This document shows positions 11,499-45,969 of a stretch of DNA of 47,067 nt, piece by piece; position 1 is the stretch's first letter, and each line of letters begins with the position of its first letter. The position numbers were made by a program, and so were the translations under genes. Under the pieces are notes generated by a model, which saw only the letters and a list, made by a program, of their open reading frames with translations, was not told the DNA's origin and did no database searches. The stretch lies in NCBI GenBank assembly GCA_017631435.1, contig JAGBTG010000037.1, positions 1 through 47,067 on the forward strand. The letters are read 5' to 3'. The DNA is from Bacteroidales bacterium (GTDB lineage: Bacteria > Bacteroidota > Bacteroidia > Bacteroidales > UBA932).

Positions 11499-11528
11499 CC
11501 TCTGTACAAATATTGTCTTCCCGACAAA

Positions 11529-12632
11529 TTATTTCTTCTCTTTTGCCATCTCCTGTGCAACTTTAATGGTCTGCTCCCAAACTCTCATGAAGTTGCCGCC
11601 CCAGAACATCTCAAGCTCCTTCTCTGTATAACCCCTTCTGAGAAGCTCCACAGTAAGGTCCTTCATCTTGGAACAATCCTGGAAATCCACCATACCGCCG
11701 CCACCGTCGAAATCTGTACCCAAACCTATATGCTCAGGGCCTACGAGGTTCTTGATATGGTCTATATGGTCTGCAAGATGCACTATTTTGGTCTCACTTT
11801 TAGGAACGTTTGTAAGACACCATCTTCCTGTGGCAATCTGAATCACTCCACCAGTAGCTGCAATATCCTTGATCTCCTGGTCTGTAAGGTTTCTTGGATG
11901 ATCCTTGATAGCCCTTACAGAAGAGTGTGATGCAAAAATAGGAGCCTTGCTGAGCTTAATGATGTCATAAAGCGTAGAAGTGCTCGCATGGGACACATCA
12001 ATGAGCATTCCCAATTCATTCATCCTCTTTACAACCTGCTCGCCAAATTCGGAAAGTCCGCCATGCCCGTTGGGGTTCTCATATCTTGAGGCATCACAGA
12101 TGTCATTTGTATAGTTGTGGCACAAAGTGATATATCTGCAGCCGGCGTTATAGAAAGAATCCACTTTTGCCAAATCCTGTCCAACTCCGTAACCGTTCTC
12201 AAGGGCAAAAACCACAATACTCTTCTTTCCCTCCTTTTTCAGTTTGCGCAAATCCTTTGGAGAATATGCAATTGCAGCCTCATCGCTGTGCTTTGCCACA
12301 TACTCCTTGAACAGCCTTATCTCCTCCATCGCATACTGGTAAACAGAATCCCTTGAAGAATCCCTTAACGGTCCCTGATCAAGGAAGATGGCAAAGAAAG
12401 CGGCATCCAGCCCACCTTTCTTCATCAATGGAAAACTCACCTGTCCCTTTGATACACTCCAATCCTCACTGTCGGGATGATTCAGATACATTGCTGTATC
12501 ATTGTGGGTGTCTATTGTAAGATACTTCCTGTGTATCTTTTCAGCCTTCTTCATCAAGGCTTCATCTGAATTCTGCGCCCAGGCTCCCACAAAAAGGAAC
12601 TGCGCAGCCAAAATCAACGCTATCTTTTTCAT
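11529..12632 (-). CDS. Membrane dipeptidase, peptidase family M19
   Basis: 367 residues with a cleavable signal peptide (about 1-19, ending GAWAQ), so secreted to the periplasm. M19 enzymes are binuclear zinc dipeptidases of the amidohydrolase fold. Visible motifs are the HxD pair THNDTAMYL (H43, D45), LGLGTDFDGGG near the C-terminus, the metal His in LIDVSHAS and APIFASHSSVRA. It cleaves dipeptides, possibly including D-amino-acid containing ones. It is the last gene of a unit with the symporter gene upstream (10-nt gap), suggesting peptide breakdown coupled to glutamate uptake. A C-terminal KEKK end leaves no sorting domain. Confidence 0.9.
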   Translation of the reverse strand: MKKIALILAAQFLFVGAWAQNSDEALMKKAEKIHRKYLTIDTHNDTAMYLNHPDSEDWSVSKGQVSFPLMKKGGLDAAFFAIFLDQGPLRDSSRDSVYQYAMEEIRLFKEYVAKHSDEAAIAYSPKDLRKLKKEGKKSIVVFALENGYGVGQDLAKVDSFYNAGCRYITLCHNYTNDICDASRYENPNGHGGLSEFGEQVVKRMNELGMLIDVSHASTSTLYDIIKLSKAPIFASHSSVRAIKDHPRNLTDQEIKDIAATGGVIQIATGRWCLTNVPKSETKIVHLADHIDHIKNLVGPEHIGLGTDFDGGGGMVDFQDCSKMKDLTVELLRRGYTEKELEMFWGGNFMRVWEQTIKVAQEMAKEKK

Positions 12633-12642
12633 TTTAAAATTA

Positions 12643-13989
12643 TTATTTCTTTTTTATCCACCAGCCCATCTTTATGGCAAGCAATATAAGTAATCCCGAC
12701 AAAACCAGGCATCCAAGAGAAAGCCACAATCCCATTCCGTTCATGAACATGATTGGAACAAATGTGATGAGCAGAATCTCAATAGGGGCAATTGGAAGAT
12801 ATGCAAGAGCATAATCATCCATAGCCTTGCTTGAAAGCTTAGGGTCTACAATTCGTATAAGCGCAATGCCCATTGCCATGGTACCTGTCCACCAGCCCCA
12901 TGCAAAAATTGTACGCTCAAACCAGTAGGTCTTTGAAAGCCTTCTTCCAAAGTAGAATGTGATTGCATATACCATAACTGCACCCACAATTATGAGTACA
13001 ACAAGCGGAACAGCGTATTTTACAACTACACCAAGCTTGATTGACGCAACTCCAAATGCCACAAGCAAGTCTGTAGCCATACTGCCTATACGCTGGGTTG
13101 TCTGGGGGCATATATAATCAGTTACATTTGTAGCATCAAATATTTTCTTGAGTATAAGACCAACAATAAAAGCGCAACTGAATACAGGAAGCTCAAGCTG
13201 CGGTTGCCACTGCTTGACTCCAACACTCATTGAGTAGCCCAAGAATGCCACCAACAGTACAAGTGCAAGATGGAATGTAAGGGGCTCTATTGAAATTGAT
13301 GATGTAGTTGCACTTCCCATGGTATCCCTTTTCTCCTGAGGGACAAGTCCGCTGCGGAGCTCCTGGGGAAGATCTGCAAAATCTGAAATGAATGCTGTCT
13401 GTTTGTTCTTTGCAGCCCATTTTATACAGATAAGGCCACCAATTATTGCGCAAATTACGCCTACTGTTGCAGTTGTCATACCAAGTGATGCCGCCTCATC
13501 CCATCCAAGACCATTGAATGCCTCACCTATTGCAGCAGCAGTACCGTGGCCGCCGTAGAATCCGGTTGAAAGCATCACACCAAAGGCATCATTGAGTTCT
13601 GGCCATATAAGTTTCATCACAAACAATCCGAACAGGCCTGCCAAAGCCCACTGAAGCAGCATTCCCAGCTGGGCATATACCCACATTGGGCCAACCCTAC
13701 CTGCGACCTCCTTTACTGTAAATTTAGGAGAAGACAACGGAAGGGCACCAAATACCAGCGCAATCAGCACCGCCGCATAGGTTCCCATGCTTCCCGACAG
13801 CGGAAGCCAGCCAAGTCCGTTAGGGCCCAACGCAAGGCCGAGCACTCCGGCAAGAAGGCTAGGTGGAATGAACAGTTTCTGGATAAGCTTCACCTTTACT
13901 CTGATGAATTTTCCCACCAAAAGCAAGGCCGATATGATTCCAAGGTCTGAAAGCAGCACCCATGGAGTGAATACATCTGTATTGAACAT
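12643..13989 (-). CDS. gltS: Sodium/glutamate symporter (GltS/ESS family)
   Basis: 448 residues, polytopic inner-membrane protein with about ten to twelve hydrophobic spans. The family is recognised from two inverted halves each with a glycine-rich re-entrant segment, here FYGGHGTAAAIGEAF in the first half and WGWWTGTMAMGIALIRI in the second. GltS proteins take up glutamate with sodium. It lies directly upstream of the M19 dipeptidase gene in the same direction. The exact substrate cannot be told from sequence alone. Confidence 0.8.
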   Translation of the reverse strand: MFNTDVFTPWVLLSDLGIISALLLVGKFIRVKVKLIQKLFIPPSLLAGVLGLALGPNGLGWLPLSGSMGTYAAVLIALVFGALPLSSPKFTVKEVAGRVGPMWVYAQLGMLLQWALAGLFGLFVMKLIWPELNDAFGVMLSTGFYGGHGTAAAIGEAFNGLGWDEAASLGMTTATVGVICAIIGGLICIKWAAKNKQTAFISDFADLPQELRSGLVPQEKRDTMGSATTSSISIEPLTFHLALVLLVAFLGYSMSVGVKQWQPQLELPVFSCAFIVGLILKKIFDATNVTDYICPQTTQRIGSMATDLLVAFGVASIKLGVVVKYAVPLVVLIIVGAVMVYAITFYFGRRLSKTYWFERTIFAWGWWTGTMAMGIALIRIVDPKLSSKAMDDYALAYLPIAPIEILLITFVPIMFMNGMGLWLSLGCLVLSGLLILLAIKMGWWIKKK

Positions 13990-14029
13990 ATTTTATCAGT
14001 TTTAGTTTCAACAATGTTTGTAAAGTTAG

Positions 14030-14037
14030 TATTTTTG
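14030..14037 (+). promoter_or_regulatory. -7 promoter box for the DUF4294 gene
   Basis: TATTTTTG matches TAnnTTTG and lies only 8 nt before the ATG at 14046, so the transcript would be nearly leaderless. No good TTTG box is seen at the right distance upstream, so this is a partial match only. Confidence 0.4.
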
Positions 14038-14045
14038 TAAGACAT

Positions 14046-15403: not shown

Positions 15404-15418
15404 TACACAAACAACCCG

Positions 15419-16219: not shown

Positions 16220-16222
16220 ATT

Positions 16223-16471: not shown

Positions 16472-16483
16472 ATCTATATCTTA

Positions 16484-17362: not shown

Positions 17363-17375
17363 ATGAATTAACCTT

Positions 17376-17432: not shown

Positions 17433-17452
17433 TGCCTTAAAATTCCATTTTT

Positions 17453-18280: not shown

Positions 18281-19640
18281 ACATACAGTTGTCCTTGCTT
18301 TGGCAGCCATATTCATGGCTGTTTCATGCGTATCAGTAGACAAGACAATGGGTGAGAATATGGTTCCCGGCAACCAGGAGCTTGCTGTAAGCATGGCTGA
18401 GATTGAGGTACCGGTACAGTTGAAATCATCCCAGCCGCTCCAGACACTCTCTACCGAAGAGGGTACATTCGGAGCAATAAGGACCCGTGAATACGGACTT
18501 GTGGAGTTTGCCACAGCGGCAGACATATACCCTACCGTTTCGGGATGGGACTTTGGAAAAGATGCTGTTGTAAAAGGAATCTACCTGCTTGCAAACATCT
18601 CTGCAGTGTATTCAACCCACGACCAGCAGGAAGGAATCCCTCAGCAGGTATTTGTACACAGGACATACAGGAACATAGATTCCACTACCGTATACAACAA
18701 CTCGTTTACATCAGCAGACTACGATCCCACACCGCTCAATTCCGGCGAGGTGGTATATTTCGGTACCGATTCATTGAAAATCCATCTGAACCTGGATTAT
18801 GCCAAGGAACTCCTTAGTGCCACAAAAGCAGAAAGGGACACTGCAAAATTGTTTGCACAGAGGTTCAAAGGTCTGCTTATAAAATCCAACACTCCCGACG
18901 AGGGTACATATGGAGGAAGGGAGAACCTTATGAATTTTGGCATGGGAGCCCTTTATATCACCATCAACTTCCAACCTACCTGGAAAGAGGGTCTAAGCAG
19001 AAAAGATACCATTTTCTCTTTGAACTATGGCAGGGACTATTGCCTCAACATATCATCATATGAAAGCAATAAGCTACAGGATACTGCTCCCGACGGAGAC
19101 CTGGCATTTGAGGGCGCCGCAGGCTTGAAGCCATATATAGACAAAGATGACCTTAAACAGGCAATTGAGAACTGGAAAGCAAGCCAGGGACTGCAAAACA
19201 AAGAGATTCTTGTAGCCAAGGCAGCACTGGTATTTCCATTTGAAATACCTGAAAACCTTGATATGTCAACATATCCTGGCAATCTGTACCCTTGCATAAG
19301 GGAGTTTGACACAACCTTCAATGCAAACCTGTTCTTTACAGCTCCCGACATCAATGCAGACGGAATGGAACTTGGCACCATGAACAGGTCGCTTTGCGAG
19401 TACAGGATGGACATCCCTTCACTTATCCAGGATTTTATAAGCAAGGATGCATCTGAGCTTGATGAGTTGAAACACAATATATGGATTATGCCTACCAAAT
19501 CAGAGATAGACTCATACTATGGTGCCGAGACTCACAGCATAGAGAATACCACTTATTTCACAGGTAAACTCAACGGCAACAACACAAAATCTGAGAAAGG
19601 GGGCCCAAGACTGCATCTTGTATACACAGTTATGCAGTAA
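18270..19640 (+). CDS. DUF4270 family lipoprotein
   Basis: 456 residues. A lipoprotein signal ends at the Cys of AIFMAVSCVS (C20), so it is membrane anchored. The family pattern appears in GTFGAIRTREYGLVEFATAADIY, a beta-rich body, and the C-terminal NTTYFTGKLNGNNTK...LHLVYTVMQ. DUF4270 proteins are Bacteroidota outer-membrane lipoproteins of unknown role that regularly follow a glycogen-synthase-like gene. The ATG lies inside the end of the preceding gene. It ends 28 nt before a bidirectional terminator. Confidence 0.8.
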   Translation: MQFRHTVVLALAAIFMAVSCVSVDKTMGENMVPGNQELAVSMAEIEVPVQLKSSQPLQTLSTEEGTFGAIRTREYGLVEFATAADIYPTVSGWDFGKDAVVKGIYLLANISAVYSTHDQQEGIPQQVFVHRTYRNIDSTTVYNNSFTSADYDPTPLNSGEVVYFGTDSLKIHLNLDYAKELLSATKAERDTAKLFAQRFKGLLIKSNTPDEGTYGGRENLMNFGMGALYITINFQPTWKEGLSRKDTIFSLNYGRDYCLNISSYESNKLQDTAPDGDLAFEGAAGLKPYIDKDDLKQAIENWKASQGLQNKEILVAKAALVFPFEIPENLDMSTYPGNLYPCIREFDTTFNANLFFTAPDINADGMELGTMNRSLCEYRMDIPSLIQDFISKDASELDELKHNIWIMPTKSEIDSYYGAETHSIENTTYFTGKLNGNNTKSEKGGPRLHLVYTVMQ

Positions 19641-20127: not shown

Positions 20128-22638
20128 CTAATCTAATTTTACTACTGTTATACCGGAGCCTCCAAACTGTATATCCTCATCCTTGCAGCTGACAACTCCC
20201 GGAACCGTACGGAGATATTTTCTTATCTCCTCCTTTAATATGCCGTTCCCTTTACCATGAAGTATCTTAACCTCACCAATTCCAACCATAAGGGCATCAT
20301 CAATGAAACGGCTCACAATCTCCAGCGCCTCCATCAGCCTCTCTCCCCTGATATCTATATTTGGCTTAAAGTTGAGCTTACGCTCAGAAAGGCTCTCGGA
20401 ATGTGAACTCATTGTCTTTGGAAGGCTCTTCACCGCATTGCTGAACTCCTTGTTTGAAATATGCTCCACATTGGCTTTCTGCACCTTGCTTATGATGCTT
20501 CCAACCGCAACATTTACCCAATTGCCGCCAACCTGCATCACCTCTCCAATGAGATCTCCTCCCTTAATCTTAACTTTGTCTCCAACCTTCAGTTCCTTTG
20601 GAGACTGCACCTGAGCCGCAATTGCCTGAACCGGATCTGCTACTGCGCCCCCCTTGCGGGCTTCACGCTGCTGCCTCTCCTCCTTTTTCTTCTTGCGTTC
20701 AAGGAGCTTGTTCATCTTGGCCTCAATCTTACGGTCGCTCTCAGAAAGGTTCTCCTGTTCAAGGGTACTGTTGAACTCCTCCAGTTCCCTACGGGCAGCC
20801 TTTGTACGCTCCTTCTCTGCCTGAGCCTCCTTAATTTCCTTGATTGTAGCCTCCACCTTCTTGTTGGCCTGCTCAATGATAGCCTGAGCCTCCCTTTTGG
20901 CCTCAGCCAAAAGCTGTTTCTTCACAGCCTGTATATCGGTAAGCTCCTTCTCATATTTTTCCGCAATGTTCTCAAGGGTCCTGTCTGTGTTCTTAATTCT
21001 GGCAAGCTTCTCATCAAGGGCTCTTCGGTTGCGGGATATCTTCCTGAGCTGCTTCTCCATATCAACATAGCCGCTTCCGGCATTCTCCTCAGCAACCCTT
21101 ATGATATGGTCTGGCAAACCTATCTTTCGGGCCAGTTCAAATGCAAATGAATTGCCCGGAAGTCCTACCTCAAGCTTGTATAGAGGCTGGATATTTGCCA
21201 CATCAAACAGCATTGCTCCATTAATGGCCCCGTTCACCTTCTCTGCATAGAACTTGAGGTTGGTATAGTGGGTGGTAATTACACCAAACACCCCTTTCAG
21301 CTCTATATTCTCAAGTATTGCCAATGCAATGGCACCTCCTGCTGTAGGCTCAGTACCTGTTCCAAACTCATCTATAAGTACCAGCGAGCTGTCTGTTGCC
21401 CTCTGGAGCACCTCTTTCATGTTGGTAAGGTGAGAACTGTATGTACTCAGGTCATTCTCAATTGACTGCTCGTCTCCAATATCAATGAATATGTCATCAA
21501 AAATCCTGAACTCGCTCACTTCGCTCGCCGGAACCAGCAAACCCCACTGGAACATATATTTCAGCATACCCACGGTTTTCAGGCATACCGATTTTCCACC
21601 CGCATTGGGGCCGGAAATCACCAGGATATGTTTGTCGGGAGTAAGAGTAAGGGTAAGTGGGACAATCTGTTTCTTCTCCTTCTTGAGGGTTGCCTCAAGG
21701 ATGGGGTGCCTTCCCTTCACTATCTTGAGGGTTTCGTCTTCCGAGATGATTGGCTTGCCGGCCTCCATCTGCATTGCCACCTGCGCCTTGGCCCTTATGA
21801 AATCAATCTCCCCTATGAATCTTGCACCATCTATAAGTTCGGGAAGGTAAGGTCGCAAGAAATCCGAGAACTCCCTCAGGATGCGGAGAATCTCCCTCTG
21901 CTGTGCAAACATGAGTTCCCTCACCTGATTGTTCAGTTCAACCACCTCCATAGGCTCAATGAATACCGTCTTGCCTGTTGCAGACTCATCATAAACGAAT
22001 CCAGGCAGCTTGCGCTTGTTTGAGGCGCTTACGGGGATAAGAAGACGCCCGTCCCTCACTGAGACACTTGCCTCCTCATCGGCAAGCCCCTCCTCCTGCG
22101 CCTTGCGGAGGATTGCCTGTATCTTTCGGGAAATTGAGCCTTCCTTTTCCCTCAGTGATTTTCTGATATTGAACAGCTCCATGCTGGCATTGTCCCTCAC
22201 CTCTCCAAACCGGTCTACAATGGATTCTATCCTGCGCGAAATCTCCGGAAAGAACGTTATGGGTTCCGCCATGGCCTTAAGGTTGGGATACGCCCCCTCC
22301 TTACAGCCGCGGAAAAAATTTATTACACCCTTGAGGTTCTCCACAAAAGTATACAGGCGGTTCATGTTCTCAAGGGTAATGGAAGAGTACTCAACCTCAA
22401 GAGGCTTGAGGAACTCTATGCTGTCTATGAAGCCACTCTGTGGAAAACTGCTCTCAAACATGCAGATCACACGCATCTCATCCGTAAGGGAGAGCCTTTT
22501 CTCTATGGTCCGGGGATTGTGCGACACTTTTTCACTGCACACCCTCTCCTTGGCGTAATTGGTTGAACAACGCCCTGCAAGCTGCTCCTTTATCTTTTCA
22601 AAACCCAGTTTCTGCTCTATCTTTACCCAGTTCTCCAT
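20128..22638 (-). CDS. mutS2: Endonuclease MutS2
   Basis: 836 residues. The MutS-type ATPase has Walker A GPNAGGKS (343-350), LIDEFGTGTEPTAGGA (Walker B region) and the THYTNLK switch. A long coiled coil (about 500-640) follows, and the C-terminal Smr nuclease domain (about 760-836) shows IDIRGERLMEALE and KILHGKGNGILKE. There is no N-terminal mismatch-recognition domain, as in all MutS2. It acts on branched DNA or on collided ribosomes, depending on species. The start is placed at ATG 22638; the upstream TTG extension is unlikely. Confidence 0.95.
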   Translation of the reverse strand: MENWVKIEQKLGFEKIKEQLAGRCSTNYAKERVCSEKVSHNPRTIEKRLSLTDEMRVICMFESSFPQSGFIDSIEFLKPLEVEYSSITLENMNRLYTFVENLKGVINFFRGCKEGAYPNLKAMAEPITFFPEISRRIESIVDRFGEVRDNASMELFNIRKSLREKEGSISRKIQAILRKAQEEGLADEEASVSVRDGRLLIPVSASNKRKLPGFVYDESATGKTVFIEPMEVVELNNQVRELMFAQQREILRILREFSDFLRPYLPELIDGARFIGEIDFIRAKAQVAMQMEAGKPIISEDETLKIVKGRHPILEATLKKEKKQIVPLTLTLTPDKHILVISGPNAGGKSVCLKTVGMLKYMFQWGLLVPASEVSEFRIFDDIFIDIGDEQSIENDLSTYSSHLTNMKEVLQRATDSSLVLIDEFGTGTEPTAGGAIALAILENIELKGVFGVITTHYTNLKFYAEKVNGAINGAMLFDVANIQPLYKLEVGLPGNSFAFELARKIGLPDHIIRVAEENAGSGYVDMEKQLRKISRNRRALDEKLARIKNTDRTLENIAEKYEKELTDIQAVKKQLLAEAKREAQAIIEQANKKVEATIKEIKEAQAEKERTKAARRELEEFNSTLEQENLSESDRKIEAKMNKLLERKKKKEERQQREARKGGAVADPVQAIAAQVQSPKELKVGDKVKIKGGDLIGEVMQVGGNWVNVAVGSIISKVQKANVEHISNKEFSNAVKSLPKTMSSHSESLSERKLNFKPNIDIRGERLMEALEIVSRFIDDALMVGIGEVKILHGKGNGILKEEIRKYLRTVPGVVSCKDEDIQFGGSGITVVKLD

Positions 22639-22698: not shown

Positions 22699-23397
22699 AT
22701 GACCCTACCACTTGGGATTACATTATATGTACTGTTCATAGTACTGGCCTACCTTATGGGTTCCATTTCCAGTTCAATCATACTGGGAAAGCATTTCTAT
22801 GGAATTGACGTAAGGGAGTACGGCAGCAAGAACCCGGGGGCCAACAACACACAAAGGGTGCTTGGATGGAAGATAGGGTTGCTTGTGCTGGCATTTGACA
22901 TTCTCAAAGGGGTTGCAGCTACCTCTCTGGTATTTTTTCTCCCTTTTCCTAAAGAGACAAACGGATTTGTCGGGACCCAGATAGTCTTTGGCTTTGCGGC
23001 CATTATGGGACATGTGTTTCCTGTATTCCACAATTTCAAGGGAGGCAAGGGGGTTGCCACAATGTGCGGGGTTCTGTTGGCCATCCATCCTTTTGCAGTA
23101 CTTATATGTGCCACAATCTTCTGTATCATGCTGCTTATTACCAGATATGTATCAGTGAGTGTGATTACAGCGGTAACATGCTTTCCGTTCCTTGTAAACA
23201 CACTTTTTGCCCTTTGGCTCGATCCTCAGGAGACTTTGGTAATAAAGATATTCAGCATAGTGGCAGGATGTACAATCTGGCTCTGCCACATAAGCAACCT
23301 CAAAAGGCTTTACCACGGAAAAGAGGAGAAGTTCATAATAAAGAAACCACTAAGGGAAAAATCATGTCCTCTTCCCGACAAGAAAAAAGAGTCCTAA
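22699..23397 (+). CDS. plsY: Acyl-phosphate glycerol-3-phosphate acyltransferase
   Basis: 232 residues, inner-membrane enzyme that makes lysophosphatidic acid from acyl-phosphate and glycerol 3-phosphate. Three PlsY motifs are seen: MGSISSSIILGK, GSKNPGANNTQRVLGWK and HVFPVFHNFKGGKGVATM. About six hydrophobic spans. The length is slightly above the usual roughly 200, due to a basic tail after residue 205 that ends SCPLPDKKKES. It overlaps the convergent cdaA gene by 4 nt. Confidence 0.95.
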   Translation: MTLPLGITLYVLFIVLAYLMGSISSSIILGKHFYGIDVREYGSKNPGANNTQRVLGWKIGLLVLAFDILKGVAATSLVFFLPFPKETNGFVGTQIVFGFAAIMGHVFPVFHNFKGGKGVATMCGVLLAIHPFAVLICATIFCIMLLITRYVSVSVITAVTCFPFLVNTLFALWLDPQETLVIKIFSIVAGCTIWLCHISNLKRLYHGKEEKFIIKKPLREKSCPLPDKKKES

Positions 23398-27949: not shown

Positions 27950-27978
27950 TATTCTGTCGGGAAGAGGAAAGCGGTTTC

Positions 27979-32008: not shown

Positions 32009-32025
32009 TTATTCTTCCCGACAGA

Positions 32026-34710: not shown

Positions 34711-35544
34711 TTAAAGATCAATTTTATAGTATTGCGGTTTCCGCTCCTTGAAGTATACAAGGTAACGGAAGCCGCATTCTTTTGCCACGGCGGCATATTT
34801 TGCAAATTCGTCACCTATGCGGTCGGGGTTATGGGCATCCGAACCAAGGCTCAGCGCATCACCTCCAAACTCCCTGAAACGTTTCAGCACAGCAGTATCC
34901 AGCACCGGCACATACCCCTTGTGGTTCTTGTAGGTCTTGGTGTTTATCTCCATTGTCTTGCCCTCATGAGCCAGAAACTGGAGGATAGGCTCCAGCCAGT
35001 CGCCAAACTCTGCCATGGTAATATCCCTGCAACCCGGCCCGTAAGGGGAGTATCGGGCCACGTAATCATAGTGTCCCAAAATATCAAAATCCCTGTATTC
35101 CAGCGCCGTGCTGTACATCACCTCCAGAGTATTGCTGAACGCTTTCCTATAATCCTTATCTGTATAATAGGTACCCATATACGGGTCTGCTCCGTCTACA
35201 AAATGAATTGATGCAATTACAGTATCAAAACTGTATTGCGAGGTAAATGTCTTTATCTTCTCCATACTGGCAGGCTGCAGCCCCACCTCAATTCCCTTCA
35301 TCACCTGAAAGCCGCTCTGCTGTATCTGCGGAGCCAGTTCAAGGGTAACCCTGTCTATCTCTGCCTGCTGCTTTGCAGGATCAAAGAAAAACTCCTGATC
35401 CCGCGAGGGAGCATCAATATCATAATGGTCTGTAATGGCTATTCCCCTCATCCCCTTTGCAATTGCGCTGGCAATGAGGCTCTGCACAGATGCAGAGCTG
35501 TCGGGAGAAAAAGTGCTGTGATTATGGTTGTCGAAAAATTTCAT
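34711..35544 (-). CDS. PHP-domain phosphatase (histidinol phosphatase HisK-like)
   Basis: 277 residues from the ATG at 35544, where the family N-terminus MKFFDNHNHSTFS begins; the longer frame adds 27 unrelated residues. PHP metal motifs: H-x-H (HNHS), ITDHYD, IASIHFVDG, HYDYVARY and SLGSDAHNPDRIG. These fit HisK-type histidinol-phosphate phosphatase for histidine synthesis. No other his gene is adjacent, so a different phosphoester substrate is possible. A -7 box TATATTTG (35549-35556, minus) is only 4 nt from the ATG, suggesting a leaderless mRNA. Confidence 0.82.
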   Translation of the reverse strand: MKFFDNHNHSTFSPDSSASVQSLIASAIAKGMRGIAITDHYDIDAPSRDQEFFFDPAKQQAEIDRVTLELAPQIQQSGFQVMKGIEVGLQPASMEKIKTFTSQYSFDTVIASIHFVDGADPYMGTYYTDKDYRKAFSNTLEVMYSTALEYRDFDILGHYDYVARYSPYGPGCRDITMAEFGDWLEPILQFLAHEGKTMEINTKTYKNHKGYVPVLDTAVLKRFREFGGDALSLGSDAHNPDRIGDEFAKYAAVAKECGFRYLVYFKERKPQYYKIDL

Positions 35545-35584: not shown

Positions 35585-36448
35585 ATGTTTATGAAAAGTT
35601 CTATTCCCGACAGATTGAGGGACACCCTGCAACTGTGTTCCCTCTGTGCACTCCTCTACCTTGCATTCACCCGCGGAGCCCTTTACAATGCCGGCACACT
35701 GAAGGTTCTGGCAATATGGCTCATTGGGGTGGGAGGCATTCTATTTGGGAAACTTTTCTGCAGCAACCTCTGCCCTTTGGGGCTTGTTCAGGAATGGATT
35801 GCAGACCGCCGCAAAAGGGAGTATGAAATTTTCAGCAGGTGGTCTCTTCCCGACAAATCCTTGCGCAGCATAAAGTATATCCTCCTTGTACTGATGTTTA
35901 TAGATTACGGCATCTTTCTGGCCAATGCAGTTGCAGCAGTAATACTCCTCTCCGTACTGATTTTGGGAAACATGTCCTTCTGCAAATATCTCTGTCCGGT
36001 AAATGCTGCCAGCAACATTTTCCGACTCACAGTAATGTTCATGCTTGTACTTATGGCACATTGGGGACTTGCCATGGGAGGCATTGAAGTTCCGTTATGG
36101 GGAGTTGTGGCAGCCATGTCGGCTGCAGGATATTTCCTTGAAATCTATACAAAGAAAGCTGAGTTCAACATCTCCCTACTCCACATACACAGGGATATCC
36201 ACAAATGCAAGGAGTGCGGCAAGTGCGTGGGGGCCTGCCCGTATAAAGTAGACATCACAGCCGTAAAGAGGGTTGTGGATATAGACTGCAACCTTTGCGG
36301 AGAGTGTGTGAGGGAGTGCGGCAACGATGCCCTTAAGGTTGGAATCTGCAACACCCGCCCGGGTCAGAACAGAATAAGGGGAGTGTGGTTCGCCCCCCTT
36401 GTTACTCTTGTCCTTATCTGTATTGCCTTGTGGCTCCTGCTCAGATAG
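35585..36448 (+). CDS. NapH-like membrane polyferredoxin
   Basis: 287 residues with about five transmembrane helices. Two membrane-side CxxxCP motifs (FCSNLCPLG, C59/C63; FCKYLCPVNAA) and two C-terminal 4Fe-4S ferredoxin motifs (CKECGKCVGACPYKVD and CNLCGECVRECGND) define the NapH/YccM/NosR-type electron-transfer membrane protein family. It probably passes electrons from quinol to a periplasmic or membrane acceptor. It meets the hemerythrin-LuxR gene tail-to-tail with no spare base, and a TAATTTTG box (35566-35573) precedes it. The acceptor is unknown. Confidence 0.82.
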   Translation: MFMKSSIPDRLRDTLQLCSLCALLYLAFTRGALYNAGTLKVLAIWLIGVGGILFGKLFCSNLCPLGLVQEWIADRRKREYEIFSRWSLPDKSLRSIKYILLVLMFIDYGIFLANAVAAVILLSVLILGNMSFCKYLCPVNAASNIFRLTVMFMLVLMAHWGLAMGGIEVPLWGVVAAMSAAGYFLEIYTKKAEFNISLLHIHRDIHKCKECGKCVGACPYKVDITAVKRVVDIDCNLCGECVRECGNDALKVGICNTRPGQNRIRGVWFAPLVTLVLICIALWLLLR

Positions 36449-37390
36449 TTATTTGATATCCAAGTCTTCCAGCTGTACCAGCTTGTTTACAATCGCATAG
36501 ATTGTGAGGCCGGCAGGGCTGTGTATCTTCAACTTGTTCATAATGTTCTTCCTGTGGGTATTTACAGTGTGCACAGAAAGGAACATCTTGGCTGCAATCT
36601 CCTTGTTGGTAAGGCCGCGTACAATATGCACCAGCACATCAATCTCCCTCTCACTCAAGGACTCCTCCTCCACTTTCTTTACGGAAGTCTGAGCAAGGGT
36701 CTCTTCCATCTGCCTGATCTTGGGCTCAAGCAGTGTATCCTCAATGAGGTTATGGCTCTCAAGGTCCTGCTGGCAGACAAAAATATCGTACAATACGGTA
36801 TTGAGTTCATTGGTTGCTCCCCCGGGATAATATTTTACTATTATGTCTATCAGCTCTCCCAGACGCACGTCAATTGAGTTGTGCTGCTCACTGAAGATAT
36901 GCTGGTTCTTTCCAGGAAGGGGCTCCCCTTTCTTGTATGCCTCAATGAGCCTGCTCATATAAGGGAAGATCTCCTCATTCTCCTGGTTCATGTGGCGCTC
37001 CACCTCAGCTGCATAGTCATCAAAGTAATTGAGTATAAGATACTGCATCTGCTTCCCTCCCCCCTCAACGGCTTTCTCCAATGCTCCCCTCAATGCAGGG
37101 AGCCTGTAATCTGTGTAGTAAGTGTGGGATTTCTGGAGATACAGGATAAGTTCCTCTACAGAGAACTCCACATCATCCTGCTTGCTGTCGGGATTATTGA
37201 AAAGGTTTACCACTGCCAGAAAGGTTTTGCAGTCTACCCCACTCAGGCGGCAGACCTCCTCAATGCTTTTGTCACCTACACCCAAGGAGATTCCAAACCT
37301 GCTGAGCATGTTTAGCAGACGGTAGTTGGTGGTAATGAGGGACTCCATCTTGTCCCTTGCTGTAAATATTCTCTGATCCCTGTATTCCAT
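36449..37390 (-). CDS. RIC/hemerythrin-domain LuxR family regulator
   Basis: 313 residues. Three parts: residues about 15-75 resemble the ScdA/YtfE (RIC) N-terminal domain (NMLSRFGISLGVGDKSIEEV, Cys positions replaced); about 95-225 is a hemerythrin HHE four-helix bundle with metal-type residues in HMNQENEEIFPYM, SEQHNSIDVRLGEL and LESHNLIEDTLLEP; about 245-305 is a LuxR helix-turn-helix (LSEREIDVLVHIVRGLTNKE). Such a di-iron sensor would report oxygen, nitric oxide or iron status. A 20-bp palindrome overlaps its promoter. Confidence 0.88.
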   Translation of the reverse strand: MEYRDQRIFTARDKMESLITTNYRLLNMLSRFGISLGVGDKSIEEVCRLSGVDCKTFLAVVNLFNNPDSKQDDVEFSVEELILYLQKSHTYYTDYRLPALRGALEKAVEGGGKQMQYLILNYFDDYAAEVERHMNQENEEIFPYMSRLIEAYKKGEPLPGKNQHIFSEQHNSIDVRLGELIDIIVKYYPGGATNELNTVLYDIFVCQQDLESHNLIEDTLLEPKIRQMEETLAQTSVKKVEEESLSEREIDVLVHIVRGLTNKEIAAKMFLSVHTVNTHRKNIMNKLKIHSPAGLTIYAIVNKLVQLEDLDIK

Positions 37391-38649: not shown

Positions 38650-38650
38650 C

Positions 38651-38680: not shown

Positions 38681-38686
38681 GTGAAT

Positions 38687-39091: not shown

Positions 39092-39495
39092 TGATGAAAC
39101 TGCAGGATACACTATTCACCGTAAGGAAGATTTCCTACCCCAATTCAAACACCCGCCATGGAAAGTGCAAGATAAATCTCATTGCACAGCATCACGGGGA
39201 GGAATCTGCAGCCTCACATCAAATCATTTCTGAGACATCATTGCTGCAGATGACTAAAGAGTGTGCCCAGCACATGTCGCATGAGAGATACCTGATAAGC
39301 TCCATCCGCCAGTTCAGGCTCTTCCACCCGCTAAGTCCCGACAATATCCCCGCCATCATGATAGAGATCCATATTACCCCTACAGAAAAGGAGGGAACCG
39401 GCCTTGTGCACAGGATGAAGGCTGTGTGCACCAGATTGGGCGGTGACGGCAGAAAATTCTTTGAAATAGCAGCAGAACTCTCTCCAATCAAATAA
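39091..39495 (+). CDS. Small protein, possible second hotdog-fold subunit
   Basis: 134 residues starting at the ATG in TAATG that overlaps the stop of the previous gene; translational coupling is likely. The length equals its neighbour. Strand-rich segments (FRLFHPLSPDNIPAIMIEIHIT and VCTRLGGDGRKFFEIAAELS) match the C-terminal half of hotdog proteins, but the catalytic helix is unclear: the middle is HQIISETSLLQMTKECAQHM. A paired, possibly non-catalytic, subunit is one reading; otherwise function is unknown. It ends 29 nt before the promoter of the DUF5686 gene. Confidence 0.45.
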   Translation: MMKLQDTLFTVRKISYPNSNTRHGKCKINLIAQHHGEESAASHQIISETSLLQMTKECAQHMSHERYLISSIRQFRLFHPLSPDNIPAIMIEIHITPTEKEGTGLVHRMKAVCTRLGGDGRKFFEIAAELSPIK

Positions 39496-39524
39496 TTGGA
39501 CTAGTTTTTTTCAATTTAAGACTA

Positions 39525-39554: not shown

Positions 39555-39574
39555 CACCCTGTTTGAAAAGAGGG

Positions 39575-42115
39575 ATGAAAAGGTATCTGATTTATATTTT
39601 TGCAATGCTCATTGCAGCCACATCTGCAATTGCCCAGACCACCAAGGTCAAGGGCACTGTAAAGGACGCATACAACGGCGAGCCTCTCCCTTTTGTAAAC
39701 ATCTGGTTCCCCGGTACCACCATTGGTGTAACCACAGATTTTGACGGCAATTACTCCATAGAGACCCGCCAGAGTGTTCCTGACATCCTCAGAGCCGAGA
39801 TTCTGGGTTATGAACCCCAGGAACAGAAAATCACCCCAGGAGGTTTTACCTCTGCAGACTTTTCCCTCAAACCTCAATCCATCTCACTTGAGGGAATTAC
39901 AGTAAAGGCAGACAACAGCAAGATAAGGGCATTCATAAAGAGGGTCAATGAGAGAAAAAAATACAATAATCCCGACAACCATGAGACCGCCCAGGGCAAT
40001 ATATACAGCAAGATGGAACTGGATATTGCCAACATCGACCCATTCCTCAAAAACAGGCTCATCAAAAAGAATTTTGGCTTTGTGGAGCAGTATATGGATA
40101 CTTCTGCCCTCTCAGGAGAAGCATACCTTCCCATAATGATAAGTGAGTCAACCGCAAAATTCTATAAGGGAAAAAATCCGCCTGTTTCCAGGGAGGTGCT
40201 GGAGGCAAGCAGGATATCGGGAGTGGAGGAGGACTACTCTTTGGCCCAGTTTACAGGACACATGCATGCAAATGTGAACCTTTACGACAATTTCATAGAT
40301 ATTTTTGCCGTAAAGTTCGTCTCTCCCCTCAATGACCACGGCTTTGTATACTACAACTATTACCTTATAGACAGTCTGGATATTGACGGAAGGAAAACTT
40401 ACAAGCTCAGATTCCACCCAAAGATGAAATCCACCCCTGTCCTCGATGGAGAGTTTACCATAGACTCTACCACAATGGCTTTGAGAGATGCCCGCATAAA
40501 GATGGTGAAAGGGCTGAATGTGAACTGGATAAAGGATTTGGCCATTGAGGCAGACAACCAGCTGGTGAACGATACAACCTGGTTCAAAAAGAGGGACAAG
40601 CTGTATGTTGACTTTTCCATCACCACAAATGATGCCCTCAAGACAGCTTCATTCTTGGCCCATAGGGAGGTGAACTACACCAATGTGGTACTAAATGAAC
40701 CTATTCCACACGAAATCCTCAAACACAGCACCAACGTGGTGTTTGATGAAAATATCCTTAACAACAGCAATACCTACTGGGAAGCCGAGCGCCCATATGC
40801 CCTCACCCAAAAGGAGCAGAATATCTACAACATGGTGGATTCAATAAAGAATGTACCTGTATACAACACATTGTACAATATTGTCTCCACTTTGTTTGGG
40901 GGGTATTATGATGCGGGGAACATTGAAATTGGTCCATACTACAAACTTTTCAGTTTCAACAACCTTGAGGGGGCAAGATTCCAGTTTGGCATGCGTACAA
41001 CCGAAAGTTGGAGCAAGAACGTGCGCTACAGCGGATATGCCGCATACGGCACCAAAGACCGGGCCTTGAAGGGTGGAGGATCTGTTGAATACATGTTTGA
41101 CAGACAGCCTACCAGAAAGTTCTCTGCAGGCTACAGGCGTGACGCCCTCCAGTTGGGTGCTTCCGACGATGCCTTTACAGAGGGCAATATCATGGGATCC
41201 CTTCTCTCCAAAGGAGACAGCCAGCGTCTGGGCATGGTAAACCGGGGAACAGTCTCATATGAACATGAATGGAGGGAAGGCCTTACCACAATCCTCACAG
41301 CAGAGACCAACCGCATAGGGAGCAATGAATATGTTCCCATGTTTACTCCCGACAGCATTCCGGTTGGGGCCGTAAGAAGTGCCACAGTGGGACTCGGTAT
41401 GCGTCTGAGCTGGAATGAGATGACAAACCGAGATCACTTTGACAAACTGTATCTTTCTACAGACTACCCGATCATAACGGCAGATTTCAGGATGGGAATA
41501 AAGGATGCGCTGCGTGAGAGTCCGGAATTTTACAGGGCCGAACTGGGGATAGACTATGACTTGGCCATGCCTCCATTCGGAACTTCATACTTCAGGGTAA
41601 AAGCCGGAAAGATATGGGGAAAAGTACCTTATCCTATGCTCAAGCTTCACGAAGGCAACGGAACATACTTTTTTTCTCCACAGGCTTTTGCTTGTCTTGA
41701 TTTCTACGAATTTGCGTCCGATGCCTGGGTACAGTTCTTCTATGAACACAATTTCAAGGGATTCTTTCTTGGAAAAATTCCTTTACTCAAAAGGCTCAAC
41801 TTCAGGGAGGTAATATCGTTCAGAGGAGTAGTGGGTACCATTTCAGACAAGAACAACGGAAGTGCCGGACATATCGCCTCAATTACAGATACTGCAACAG
41901 GGAAAATCATTACAGAAGCCGATTCCCCTTATTTGCTGTTTCCAACAGGTATGACCGGGGTTAAAAAGCCTTATTTTGAGGCAGGTGCGGGCATAACAAA
42001 TATCTTCAGAATATTCAGGGTGGATGCTTTCTGGCGCCTGAACCACAAGGAGAATTACCTTGGCGAGAAAAACACAGCTTGGGTAATAAACGTTGGGGTG
42101 GAACTCAAATTCTAG
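39575..42115 (+). CDS. DUF5686 outer-membrane protein with CarboxypepD_reg domain
   Basis: About 846 residues from Met at 39575, preferred over 39563 for its signal peptide (MKRYLIYIFAMLIAATSAIA). Then a carboxypeptidase-regulatory-like domain (about 25-110; VKGTVKDAYNGEPLPFVNIW, FDGNYSI), the DUF5686 region with FIKRVNERKKYNNPDNHETA and LDGEFTIDSTTMALRDARI, and a C-terminal barrel of amphipathic strands ending WVINVGVELKF. Such proteins sit in the outer membrane of Bacteroidota; the role is unknown. The stop TAG shares the CTAG with the convergent HAD gene. Confidence 0.85.
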   Translation: MKRYLIYIFAMLIAATSAIAQTTKVKGTVKDAYNGEPLPFVNIWFPGTTIGVTTDFDGNYSIETRQSVPDILRAEILGYEPQEQKITPGGFTSADFSLKPQSISLEGITVKADNSKIRAFIKRVNERKKYNNPDNHETAQGNIYSKMELDIANIDPFLKNRLIKKNFGFVEQYMDTSALSGEAYLPIMISESTAKFYKGKNPPVSREVLEASRISGVEEDYSLAQFTGHMHANVNLYDNFIDIFAVKFVSPLNDHGFVYYNYYLIDSLDIDGRKTYKLRFHPKMKSTPVLDGEFTIDSTTMALRDARIKMVKGLNVNWIKDLAIEADNQLVNDTTWFKKRDKLYVDFSITTNDALKTASFLAHREVNYTNVVLNEPIPHEILKHSTNVVFDENILNNSNTYWEAERPYALTQKEQNIYNMVDSIKNVPVYNTLYNIVSTLFGGYYDAGNIEIGPYYKLFSFNNLEGARFQFGMRTTESWSKNVRYSGYAAYGTKDRALKGGGSVEYMFDRQPTRKFSAGYRRDALQLGASDDAFTEGNIMGSLLSKGDSQRLGMVNRGTVSYEHEWREGLTTILTAETNRIGSNEYVPMFTPDSIPVGAVRSATVGLGMRLSWNEMTNRDHFDKLYLSTDYPIITADFRMGIKDALRESPEFYRAELGIDYDLAMPPFGTSYFRVKAGKIWGKVPYPMLKLHEGNGTYFFSPQAFACLDFYEFASDAWVQFFYEHNFKGFFLGKIPLLKRLNFREVISFRGVVGTISDKNNGSAGHIASITDTATGKIITEADSPYLLFPTGMTGVKKPYFEAGAGITNIFRIFRVDAFWRLNHKENYLGEKNTAWVINVGVELKF

Positions 42116-42837: not shown

Positions 42838-42855
42838 ATACCAGCCATATTCTGT

Positions 42856-44685
42856 CTATAGAGACTCTATAGTTGAAAAATAATCTGCAAACTTTGATCT
42901 TTTATATGCATCCACACTCTTTCCAGGCACTTTAAGGATCTTATCCCCTTGTTTTTCAAATGCGCCATTTTCAAGTGCAGGTGGAACATCAGCATATAGT
43001 TCAATCACTTTAAGGGCACCGCAACCATTGAACGCCCCTTCCCATATATGAGTTAACGGAGCTCTAATTATAACCTCCTCAAGTTTGTCACACCCGTTGA
43101 ACACATAATCACCCAAAAAAGTTACGGATTCCGGCACTTCAACTTTTACCAGTCCGTCGCACCCTTGGAATGCACCACTATATATCTTCTGCACAGTGTT
43201 GGGCATATATATCCGTTCCAGTTTTTTACAACTGTTAAATACATAATCATTGATAATCTTTACTCCCTCCGATACTGTAAACTCTTCAAAAGCAGTTCCC
43301 TCAAAAGCGGATGCACCATATGCCTCAATACTTTCCGGAAGATAAAGCTCCTTAAGAGACTCACATCCACTGAACATTACATCCGGCACTTCTTTTATTC
43401 CATTCTGCAATGCAGCTTTTTCCAATGAAACACAGCGTCCAAAAACCAAGCGCCCAAAATCTGCGATCCCAGATGGCACAGACACCTCTTTTATTGAAGA
43501 ACATTCCGCAAAGGCACTGTACCCAAGACTTTTAAGTGTAGACGGAAACTCAACACCAATTAATAAAGCACATCCTTGGAATGCTGTCTCACCAATTTTT
43601 TCCATGCCATATGGAAGATCTATGCTCTTTAACGACGTACATCTGTAGAAGGCCCTTTCCCCTATCTCCATCACATCCGGATGCATTTCTACATTCTTTA
43701 ACATTGAACACTGATTACAGAAATCTTTAGGCACCTTCACCAACCCCTTTGGCATCCGCACTGATTCCAAATTTTCACATAATGCAAACACACCCTCCTC
43801 CATTTCTGTGATATTGTCGGGAAGAACTGCAACCTTTAAGGATTTGTCCTTATAAAAAGCATCTGCTCCAATTTTCTCAACGGAGCAAGGTATAAAAATC
43901 TCCTCCAGCGCTTCACATCCTTCAAATGCTCTACGGCCAATTGATACAACTCCATAAGGAATTTTCACACTCTTTATCTTCTGGTTATCTCTCATGAAAC
44001 TATTCTTCAATTCCGGATGCTCCAACTCCATCAAAAATTCTTCCCCATCTGTTGTAGTATAGGTTAACACGTATTTACTTGCACCTTGGATTATCTTCAC
44101 AAAAGATTCACTCATGCCATTATCGCCCACAAGCTTCACTTCTACGCTACGGACTTCCTCTGAATTGTTTGGCTCCAACTTGAACAAAAGCTCCTTTCCA
44201 TTCGTATTTTCACCTGACACTATTGATATCCAGCCACTAGCAGATTCTGGAACCTGCACTGTACACGATCCACCGCCAATAATCTTTACAGGCACTATCA
44301 GTTCTACAGCATCCCACTGTGCATAATATTCAGAATATGGCGTATAAACTACCTCTTTTACATCTTGACGGATCTGAACCTTTTCAGTTATACCGGATGC
44401 CTCAAATGAAAGAAACCCCAACCTCTCTTTGTCTGACTCATTTTCCTGCACAGTAACTGTGACTGTTGTTTCATCACCTTTCTTCTGACACTTCAACTCC
44501 ATCCAACTGTCTGCAAAAACAGTCCAGGCAACATTGGACATTACTGATACGGAAACTTTTTCACCGTATGCTGAAACTTCAAATACACTTTCAGTCACTG
44601 AAATATACGGAGCCGCAACTTCATTATTCTTTGAGCAAGATATTATTGCAAGTATACATATCAAAACCAAAATTACCTTTTTCAT
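42856..44685 (-). CDS. BACON and leucine-rich-repeat (BspA-like) lipoprotein
   Basis: 609 residues. Lipobox in AIISC (C17). Two BACON-like beta domains (about 28-112 and 113-205), the first with SVSVMSNVAWTVFADSWMEL. From about 220 the chain is LRR_5 repeats of the BspA type with the period ...YxCxSLKxIDLPYGMEKIGE..., about 15 copies. A -7 box TAACTTTG (44709-44716, minus) precedes it. Surface or periplasmic, with likely adhesion or protein-binding function; no catalytic motif. Confidence 0.85.
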   Translation of the reverse strand: MKKVILVLICILAIISCSKNNEVAAPYISVTESVFEVSAYGEKVSVSVMSNVAWTVFADSWMELKCQKKGDETTVTVTVQENESDKERLGFLSFEASGITEKVQIRQDVKEVVYTPYSEYYAQWDAVELIVPVKIIGGGSCTVQVPESASGWISIVSGENTNGKELLFKLEPNNSEEVRSVEVKLVGDNGMSESFVKIIQGASKYVLTYTTTDGEEFLMELEHPELKNSFMRDNQKIKSVKIPYGVVSIGRRAFEGCEALEEIFIPCSVEKIGADAFYKDKSLKVAVLPDNITEMEEGVFALCENLESVRMPKGLVKVPKDFCNQCSMLKNVEMHPDVMEIGERAFYRCTSLKSIDLPYGMEKIGETAFQGCALLIGVEFPSTLKSLGYSAFAECSSIKEVSVPSGIADFGRLVFGRCVSLEKAALQNGIKEVPDVMFSGCESLKELYLPESIEAYGASAFEGTAFEEFTVSEGVKIINDYVFNSCKKLERIYMPNTVQKIYSGAFQGCDGLVKVEVPESVTFLGDYVFNGCDKLEEVIIRAPLTHIWEGAFNGCGALKVIELYADVPPALENGAFEKQGDKILKVPGKSVDAYKRSKFADYFSTIESL

Positions 44686-44729
44686 AAACTTTCATTTTAA
44701 AATATTCTCAAAGTTAGAAAATTTAGCAT

Positions 44730-45815
44730 TCAATAGACTATCTTCACTTGGGTATTGCAAAAAAATGGCGTTGGGAAGACTTCATACACAGCATTGTCGG
44801 GAAAAAGGAATTCTCTCCGGAAAGATTCAGACTGCCGGCTGCCGTGGGGCATCATTATTACACAGACAGGGATTGTGGTGTATACCGCTCCGCCGTTGGC
44901 CCTGGCATCCTCGGGATTCCACCGGCTCTCTACGGCAAGTTCACCATCTCTGCCAAGATGTATCATCGAATAAGTGTACTGCATCCCTTTTTCCGTCAGA
45001 AGAGGATTTTCCATCATATCCTTATAGGCCCGCTCCACCGCATCTCCGTTGAGGGGGTTGAACCTCATTGTGGCATTCCCTTTTACCCATTCGTACTGTG
45101 TGAATTCTTCAGGTGCGTTTACAAGTTTCTGAAGGAATATTGTATCACCGGGCGAGATCTCTATCACCCCATCCTGCAAATTCATAATCTGGACACTGTT
45201 CTCCAGTTCGTAAAACGGCAGGGAAAAGACCTTTCTCTCCGGTTCTCCCCTCCGGTTCACCCCCTGCACAGTCACCTCAATCCTATACAACCTGTCCTTT
45301 CCAATTGAGCTCCACCTCACCGTTTCCAGCCCACTGCCCCGGTCTATTGTTGTTTCATCATAACTGCGGTTCACATAGTTATAGAACCTTACGGCAGGGG
45401 GAATCTTCTTCCCGACAAACACTTCAAAGCCATCCCCCACCGGTGAGATATAGTGGTTCCTGGGCAGTGCGGAACTGCCTCCAAGAATATAGACTGAATC
45501 TCCTGAATAATTGAAAGAATATACATCTCTGTAAAAATTTACCGCTTCTATTGTTGGAGGAGATGCATCTGCCGGTTCATACCCCACAATCTCAAGCGTT
45601 CTCAGCCCCTCCTCGCGCAGTTTTAGAGTATCTGAAGGATTTGCCCCACCACTGACATAAAGTTCTCCATTCAGTGCAAAAACGAGCTTTTCTACGGGGA
45701 CATGCTGCACTTGCTCCTCTTGAGGCGGAACTGGCGGAGTATCCAACGGCTTCTGGTCACTGCAGCCTGATATTATCCCACTCAACAAAACACAGATTAA
45801 CCTTACTTTCCACAT
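44730..45815 (-). CDS. Hypothetical lipoprotein, 361 residues
   Basis: Starts at ATG 45815: MWKVRLICVLLSGIISGCSD gives a lipoprotein signal (C18); the longer frame has no such signal. Proline-rich linker (LDTPPVPPQEEQV), then a strand-rich body with FALNGELYVSGGANPSDTLK and GRDGELAVESRWNPEDARAN, and a C-terminal VYEVFPTPFFCNTQVKIVY. I do not recognise the family; it looks like a beta-sandwich surface lipoprotein. The downstream BACON/LRR gene has its own promoter in the 44-nt gap, so co-transcription is partial at most. Confidence 0.6.
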   Translation of the reverse strand: MWKVRLICVLLSGIISGCSDQKPLDTPPVPPQEEQVQHVPVEKLVFALNGELYVSGGANPSDTLKLREEGLRTLEIVGYEPADASPPTIEAVNFYRDVYSFNYSGDSVYILGGSSALPRNHYISPVGDGFEVFVGKKIPPAVRFYNYVNRSYDETTIDRGSGLETVRWSSIGKDRLYRIEVTVQGVNRRGEPERKVFSLPFYELENSVQIMNLQDGVIEISPGDTIFLQKLVNAPEEFTQYEWVKGNATMRFNPLNGDAVERAYKDMMENPLLTEKGMQYTYSMIHLGRDGELAVESRWNPEDARANGGAVYTTIPVCVIMMPHGSRQSESFRREFLFPDNAVYEVFPTPFFCNTQVKIVY

Positions 45816-45888
45816 AACTTTTTCTTGCCAAAGTATAAAACGGCAATGACTTTTTGTATAAATAGAGTAAAATCTCACCTTACAGGTG

Positions 45889-45910
45889 GAGTAAATTTTG
45901 GAATTTACTC
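45889..45910. promoter_or_regulatory. Palindromic operator candidate before the DoxX gene
   Basis: GAGTAAATT-TTGG-AATTTACTC is a perfect 9-bp inverted repeat with a 4-nt spacer. A GAGTAAAA half-site at 45865-45872 and a CACCT-TAC-AGGTG repeat (45876-45888) lie beside it. It is centred in the gap between the divergent lipoprotein and DoxX genes; a MarR-type protein is encoded two genes on and is a candidate binder. Confidence 0.55.
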
Positions 45911-45969
45911 TGTTATGGCCTTGGATAGGGCTGTCGGGAAGAAAACAAATGGGCATCCAATCTTGTTAT

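Follow-up and report, generated by a model that had tools for sequence, protein, structure and literature searches.

Introduction

To our knowledge, sequence words directing DNA uptake have been described from the Neisseriaceae and the Pasteurellaceae only. The DNA uptake sequences (DUS) of Neisseriaceae are summarized as forming dialects that follow phylogeny and are conserved within species (PMC3630211). The uptake signal sequences (USS) of Pasteurellaceae are described as a nine-base core with AT-rich flanks, occurring in two types which mark two subclades and arising by mutation rather than by copying (PMC1626085); they are reported to show no general orientation bias, the two orientations being unevenly used within genes (PMC2346458). 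In this study, an over-represented octamer, TCCCGACA, was analyzed in a 47,067-nucleotide stretch of DNA from a member of the Bacteroidales (contig JAGBTG010000037.1; hereafter the window), in the genome bearing it and in related genomes. With a probability of roughly 0.6, we consider the word TCCCGACR with its T-rich flanks to be a DNA-uptake, i.e., self-recognition, sequence.

Within the Bacteroidota, transformation of Riemerella anatipestifer is described as requiring ComEC, DprA, ComF, RecA and an HHH protein and, in addition, a DUF5689 protein and an adjacent carboxypeptidase-regulatory outer-membrane protein; in the portion of that report consulted, no uptake word is mentioned (PMC8459023). 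Likewise, no title in the open-licence literature consulted reports an uptake, over-represented or Chi word for Bacteroidota or Bacteroides.

The system presented here resembles the DUS in copy number (approximately a thousand or more in a genome of approximately 2 Mb), asymmetry and dialects following phylogeny (PMC3630211), but differs in phylum, in the word itself and in the rarity of close inverted pairs. It shares with the USS a core with T-rich flanks, clade-specific types, the lack of a general orientation bias and an unequal representation of the two orientations within genes (139 sense and 93 antisense TCCCGACR sites), whereas the word is unrelated, pilus-type machinery was not found and a bias towards gene termini was not seen. 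As in Riemerella, ComEC, DprA and HHH proteins occur in the genus, and a protein pair of the same domains is encoded adjacently in 15 of 39 genomes; in contrast, this pair is missing from the genomes carrying the dialect of the window.

Over-Representation of the Word

The genome bearing the window (G000; 2,166,856 bases in 59 contigs, 88% complete) was sampled over 392,832 readable bases including the window, approximately 18% of the genome, and genes in this sample were called by a simple custom script. The window holds 26 exact copies of TCCCGACA, 15 on the plus and 11 on the minus strand, compared with 0.64 expected from dinucleotide shuffles and a maximum of four in any of 100 shuffled windows. 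The original prediction, made from the window alone, had counted 25 copies (15 plus, 10 minus) where about one was expected from base composition; the copy overlooked lies at 552–559 on the minus strand. A purine follows the octamer in 25 of 26 copies, in line with the 24 of 25 noted earlier. The genome-wide count then proposed as a check yielded 915 copies, balanced between the strands as stored (447 and 468); the reversed word, a control whose composition is not matched to that of TCCCGACA, occurs 89 times.

Within the sample, 187 copies of TCCCGACA compare with 3.75 expected under a second-order Markov model, and its one-mismatch neighbour TCCCGACG was found 82 times compared with 1.3 expected (approximately 62- to 63-fold). 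Clear, though lower, enrichment was observed for the neighbours TCCCGATA (8-fold) and TCTCGACA (5-fold). Since TCCCGACG is itself enriched, the word is TCCCGACR, and TCCCGACG copies are not just decay products; of the two earlier suggestions for these near-misses, a decaying or a variable word, the former is not supported for TCCCGACG. Of the positions then given for these near-misses, 18893 and 19088 (plus) are right, while 32642 and 33617 are one base off, the copies starting at 32641 and 33616 (minus). Scaling the ratio of sampled sites (269/187) to the 915 copies, we estimate approximately 1300 TCCCGACR per genome, one per 1.6–1.7 kb.

Codon usage was addressed by 60 synonymous shuffles within genes in which amino acids were kept. 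TCCCGACA was found 89 times in sense and 62 times in antisense orientation compared with 4.9 and 2.8 after shuffling, and TCCCGACG 50 and 31 times compared with 3.1 and 0.9. For the reversed control, the corresponding values were 6 and 7 compared with 6.4 and 2.7; in antisense orientation, this control (ACAGCCCT) thus exceeded its own shuffles (largest value 5). Codon usage does not explain the abundance of TCCCGACA, and the claim that it is more than a codon-pair habit withstood the very test which the original prediction had named against itself.

Furthermore, TCCCGACA is embedded as the core in an extended motif of approximately TnnTCCCGACRR, which is non-palindromic and has T-rich flanks. 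Among 275 TCCCGAC sites, T occupies position −3 in 79% and position −6 in 50%, and the two following bases are purines. The 38 sites outside called genes yield a consensus of approximately TTYTTCCCGACAG plus T at +14, with T(−3) reaching 84%. T(−3) amounts to at least 60% in each of the six gene frames (122, 74, 15, 11, 5 and 4 sites) and is therefore not a codon effect. A short, non-palindromic word over-represented throughout the genome is what characterizes uptake sequences, and AT-rich flanks are a feature of the USS.

The copies of TCCCGACA in the window are as follows (L001 to L003 are relatives introduced below):
552..559, minus: intergenic, 120 bases past the L17 gene ending the ribosomal operon
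11519..11526, plus: intergenic, 2 bases from a stop codon
12470..12477, minus: peptidase M19 gene, sense
12694..12701, plus: Glt symporter gene, antisense
13792..13799, plus: Glt symporter gene, antisense; kept in L001 and L002
16685..16692, plus: ftsX, antisense; kept in L002, not in L001
16978..16985, minus: ftsX, sense; kept in L001 and L002
19343..19350, plus: DUF4270 gene; next base T, the sole non-purine
21633..21640, minus: mutS2, sense; kept in 8/8 relatives aligned there
22968..22975, minus: glycerol-3-phosphate acyltransferase gene, antisense
23373..23380, plus: glycerol-3-phosphate acyltransferase gene, 3' end
25721..25728, plus: secreted S8 peptidase gene
27955..27962, minus: intergenic, between convergent porV-like gene and metK, 16 bases from the nearest stop codon
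30074..30081, plus: inside the comF-like gene
32016..32023, plus: intergenic, flanked by convergent reading frames, with a stop codon 7 bases away
35499..35506, minus: PHP-domain gene; kept in L002
35605..35612, plus: overlap of PHP and Fer4 reading frames
35848..35855, plus: Fer4 gene
37186..37193, minus: LuxR/hemerythrin-type regulator gene
39336..39343, plus: unnamed reading frame
39970..39977, plus: DUF5686 gene
41347..41354, plus: DUF5686 gene
43815..43822, minus: LRR_5/BACON gene
44795..44802, minus: unnamed reading frame
45410..45417, plus: unnamed reading frame, antisense
45932..45939, minus: unnamed reading frame

The copies of TCCCGACG are:
18893..18900, plus: DUF4270 gene
19088..19095, plus: DUF4270 gene
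32641..32648, minus: peptidase C69 gene
33616..33623, minus: peptidase C69 gene; kept in L002 and L003

The gene content of the window is of Bacteroidota type (PorV of the type IX secretion system, Por secretion tail, DUF4270, DUF5686). As noticed earlier, the word is missing from the ribosomal protein operon (680–11275, 10.6 kb; identified from L17, RpoA, SecY and L16 matches and gene order), where 5.9 sites are expected at the mean density of the window. Four copies, at 552, 11519, 27955 and 32016, are intergenic; for the last three, the distances measured to the nearest stop codon are 2, 16 and 7 bases, compared with the 2–14 nucleotides given earlier for three intergenic copies.

Site conservation was evaluated in three metagenome-assembled genomes of Bacteroidales from the gut of deer and cattle (L001 to L003), which are the closest named relatives found with a CdaA-type protein and share approximately 78% DNA identity. 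Sites of the window were kept in 3/7, 6/12 and 2/6 cases, respectively (11/25 in total), compared with 11–16% of comparable CpG-bearing octamers unchanged in the same genomes. No gaps occurred at the aligned sites in these three, which suggests change by substitution. In five further relatives aligned over the mutS2 stretch, 5/22 comparisons were kept, all representing the site at 21633 (comparable octamers: 7–13%). Comparisons made relative by relative are not independent of one another.

Dialects within the Genus

Across the genus, represented by 39 genomes (one per species, 1.3–2.4 Mb), copy numbers of TCCCGACA range from 11 to 985. Thirteen genomes, termed strong A, carry 229–985 copies, the threshold of 229 being arbitrary, and only 2–34 copies of a second word, CTCRGCGAT. 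The latter (B word) is carried instead by A-poor genomes such as G003, G016, G026 and G032, the last with 51 copies in 104 kb compared with 0.7 expected. Eleven genomes are strong B (274–817 copies; A words 25–77). Both words are strong in none of the 39 genomes and neither is strong in 15, several of which show a modest B excess (e.g., G012 with 83 compared with 2). G021 is a weak A genome (245 copies, 113 reversed) and by ratio weaker than G002 (154, 38 reversed), a possible A genome that was left unlabelled. A third, weaker and looser set, TCNCGATAG and CTCCGCGAT, represents dialect C of G018, G029 and G037. When all words are given in the same orientation, an alignment by eye of A (CTGTCGGGAAG), B (ATCGCYGAG) and C (CTATCGNGA and ATCGCGGAG) shows approximately RTCGNNRAG in common; in our reading, they belong to one motif family.

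The dialects were placed on a MutS2 tree comprising 30 of the 39 genomes, including seven of the 11 strong B genomes; nine genomes lacked the locus and seven of the 30 rows are unlabelled. All B rows form one clade, as do the C rows together with the unlabelled G025, and A rows fall on both sides of the midpoint root, which was set for drawing only. The A/B/C labels require two changes, the minimum possible. The dialects, mutually exclusive by their counts, thus follow phylogeny on this tree, as uptake sequences do. Should the root hold, dialect A would be the ancestral state, from which a single switch and several losses followed (G014, G019 and G030; G008 and G035; perhaps G002).

Placement of the Sites and Alternative Explanations

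Among the 269 sites sampled, 231 (86%) lie inside called genes; a single sense frame accounts for 122 of these, a single antisense frame for 74 and the other four frames for 35. Of the 38 sites placed outside genes by the script, at least eight lie in missed reading frames (five in the window, three in comEC), and the strict intergenic count was restricted to gaps of up to 400 bases. In these gaps, the density is 1.53 sites per kb (19 sites) compared with 0.65 per kb in genes. Convergent gaps hold 8 sites in 2739 bases and tandem gaps 11 in 6870 bases, whereas divergent, i.e., promoter, gaps hold none in the 2769 bases sampled (convergent versus divergent, p = 0.004). Spacing is near random (coefficient of variation 0.96 for 258 spacings).

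Orientation relative to replication was analyzed in G034, a relative closed as a single 2,229,011-base contig whose dialect word is TCSCGACAG, using 21 stretches of 20 kb around the chromosome and arms assigned by eye from the skew. The word occurs 87 times on the leading (G-rich) and 102 times on the other strand (p = 0.31; 75 and 92 by local skew), and in G000 124 and 132 times by local skew (p = 0.66). The original prediction had held that an uptake signal should show no replication-strand skew, and none was detected in either genome.

A first alternative is a recombination hotspot of the Chi type, in which an enzyme of the AddAB/RecBCD type would read the word on one strand during break repair and dialects would reflect changes of the enzyme. 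Chi words are typically short, asymmetric, frequent and lineage-specific, as are the words described here, and in E. coli and others they are strongly co-oriented with replication. The latter was not found: the leading-strand fraction in G034 has 95% limits of 0.39–0.53, which excludes Chi-like polarity of the strength seen in E. coli. T-rich flanks and a higher intergenic density are likewise not known as features of Chi, and this explanation is regarded as unlikely.

A signal for chromosome organisation or segregation, to which a nucleoid-type protein co-evolving with its word would bind, appears slightly less probable still. Near-random spacing in G000 and the presence of sites in 20 of the 21 G034 blocks (0–18 per 20 kb) are compatible with it, but neither an orientation relative to replication nor a macrodomain was visible, and more than 1000 asymmetric sites per genome would be unusual for such a protein. 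The sole site-free block is a surface-polysaccharide locus, as expected if it represents recently imported DNA without the word; this holds for the uptake and the chromosome-organising explanation alike.

Moreover, the word might arise secondarily from DNA modification or biased repair, through an asymmetric methylase or a short-patch repair system. Such an origin has been suggested for the cyanobacterial HIP1 palindrome, from which the asymmetric TCCCGACR differs. Depletion of TCCTGACA, one C-to-T transition away from the word, is what a T-to-C repair bias would give; however, it cannot yield 187 copies from the approximately 20 expected for both words, and T-rich flanks, absence from divergent gaps and clade-specific dialects are left unexplained, which makes this origin improbable. 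It is very improbable that the word serves as a signal in transcription or in RNA, e.g., as a terminator or an mRNA element. The occurrence of sites in convergent and tandem gaps, their absence from divergent ones and the four close pairs in inverted orientation would suit such a role, but 86% of sites lie within called genes, where both orientations and every frame are represented. In summary of these comparisons, Chi sites, segregation signals, terminators and methylation words all fit worse than an uptake sequence.

Competence Genes and a Candidate Receptor

Inner-membrane and cytoplasmic competence genes, which an uptake sequence would call for, are present: ComEC and DprA were each detected in 38 and HHH_3 in all of the 39 genus genomes. 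The best HHH_3 match, mostly a protein of approximately 715 residues, is probably Tex. A second, shorter HHH protein (open frames of 191–450) was also found in all 39; in G000 it comprises 358 codons with two HHH_3 stretches and an apparent membrane anchor and, judged from these features, may be ComEA-like. The window itself encodes a candidate competence gene, which we read as comF-like:
29490..30203, plus: ComF-like phosphoribosyltransferase gene (PF00156, 26.7 bits, cut-off 26.3; double zinc ribbon DZR_2 below cut-off)

The G000 comEC frame bears three sites, the comF-like gene one. Of the competence genes named by the original prediction, comEC and a comF-like gene were thus recovered, in addition to dprA and an HHH gene, whereas its type IV pilus was not found. 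The type IV pilus/type II secretion ATPase family PF00437, the one family tried, exceeded the cut-off in none of the 39 genomes (controls 13/14), with weak, short sub-cut-off matches in 31. The known DUS/USS machine therefore seems absent, and a ComP-type pilin reader as for the DUS is not expected. Apparent stops inside ComEC in some genomes had pointed to decay in word-less lineages; this was rejected, since the four comEC genes read from such lineages (G008, G014, G019, G030) proved to be full open frames ending at these points.

An adjacent pair comprising a protein starting with a CarboxypepD_reg domain (approximately 985 residues, barrel-like by eye) followed by a DUF5689 lipoprotein (approximately 340 residues) was found in 15 of the 39 genomes, namely the 11 strong B genomes, G018, G029, G037 and G038. 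The frames were read in four genomes; in G031 and G038, contig ends truncate the first protein. For DUF5689, a sub-threshold match to the OB-fold (E 0.002–0.006) fits nucleic-acid binding, and a search of its profile against solved structures gave no match up to E 1. The pair is possibly a receptor of the B and C clades. Absent from strong A genomes, it is not the A receptor and would at most be a B/C reader.

A profile search for an outer-membrane counterpart in dialect A gave, beyond the 15 genomes with the pair, weak partial matches in G005, G006, G009, G015 and G017, and a second weak partial match in G038. In G006, G009, G015 and G017, the four in which the frames to both sides were read, the matches lie in a different protein of approximately 815–870 residues located beside apparent aromatic-amino-acid genes (by eye).

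Further DUF5689 proteins were observed. Larger forms occur in six genomes, and G014, G019 and G030, which lack a strong word, carry frames of 921–922 residues with two DUF5689 stretches. In four relatives of the B/C type (L161, L163, L168, L171), an M3 peptidase gene follows the genes for a CarboxypepD_reg outer-membrane-type protein and a DUF5689 lipoprotein.

Proposed Function as an Uptake Sequence

The original prediction had left uptake sequence, Chi-like signal and segregation site open, and the tests performed favour the first, owing to the lack of replication skew, the absence of sites from divergent gaps, T-rich flanks, clade dialects and competence genes. Most properties measured for the word match the uptake sequences of Neisseriaceae and Pasteurellaceae (PMC3630211, PMC1626085, PMC2346458), namely its abundance and asymmetry, its flanks, the balance between strands, the lack of sites in divergent gaps, the lack of alignment gaps at changed sites and the agreement of dialects with the tree. 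The word thus appears to work like an uptake sequence, its membership in this class being provisional. In the proposed mechanism, the bacterium would be naturally competent, and a DNA-binding protein at its surface or in its periplasm would prefer DNA bearing the word; such DNA, mostly from the own species, would enter through ComEC and recombine, and the biased uptake would spread the word. Sister dialects (CTCRGCGAT and the weaker TCNCGATAG set) would channel recombination within dialect groups. Both the reader protein and the role of dialects as recombination barriers are inferred from these patterns.

Several observations weigh against the uptake reading. Sites show no bias towards gene ends: from the first to the last quintile of genes, 25, 37, 36, 20 and 21 sense and 21, 18, 20, 19 and 15 antisense sites were counted. 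The frequent inverted pairs at terminators that mark the DUS were not found, site pairs less than 30 bp apart accounting for 4/258 spacings compared with 5.5 by chance (all inverted, one a perfect stem). The cloud of one-mismatch neighbours is largely missing, most of those other than the three enriched being near or below expectation, and TCCTGACA is approximately eightfold depleted (2 compared with 15.8 in the G000 sample). ComEC, DprA and the HHH protein are also retained in genomes lacking a strong word, so word status does not follow these genes. To these are added the missing PF00437 family, the absence of the outer-membrane/DUF5689 pair from all 13 strong A genomes and the draft status of all genus genomes except one. 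Furthermore, the match of the pair with B/C amounts to one clade and is not independent evidence.

Extended to the whole genus, the proposal reads as sequence-specific uptake that does not involve type IV pili, in which an ancestral dialect was switched once and lost several times and the word is read by an outer-membrane receptor of a new kind, in B/C possibly the CarboxypepD_reg protein together with the OB-fold-like DUF5689 lipoprotein; we place this scenario a little short of even odds. If true, the word would represent a third, independent case of an uptake word, located in the Bacteroidota and with two dialects inside one genus. Gut bacteria may then exchange genes by self-selective transformation, and recombining species would become predictable. 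Genes tracking the dialect would offer a handle for finding the outer-membrane DNA receptor of Bacteroidota, and the word could aid the laboratory transformation of gut Bacteroidales that are otherwise intractable.

Related and Unrelated Words in Other Genomes

The extended word TNNTCCCGACAG occurs 393 times in G000 compared with five for its reversed form. Within the genus, it is scarce in some A genomes (17 copies in G005, 50 in G021), which suggests sub-dialects. In 79 genomes of 71 other genera, 1–39 copies were counted, with the highest value in G056 (39, reversed 7) and small excesses in G057 (18/3), G095 (19/5), G097 (14/1) and G090 (14/2).

Searches for strong words in 100 kb of G002 and 80 kb of G019 found none. 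Strong local words of G014 (first stretch), G050 and G062 were rejected as dialects because they represent tandem or clustered repeats, and that of G056 because it is a dinucleotide run.

In B and C relatives, a palindrome weaker than TCCCGACR, ATCGCGAT, is over-represented (15 copies compared with 0.46 expected in 140 kb of G003); it may be either a distinct word of the HIP1 type or a further member of this motif family. Short clustered repeats with regular spacing were observed in L068, L077 and L082, of which L068 carries inverted copies of CATCTGAAC every 110–190 bases, approximately.

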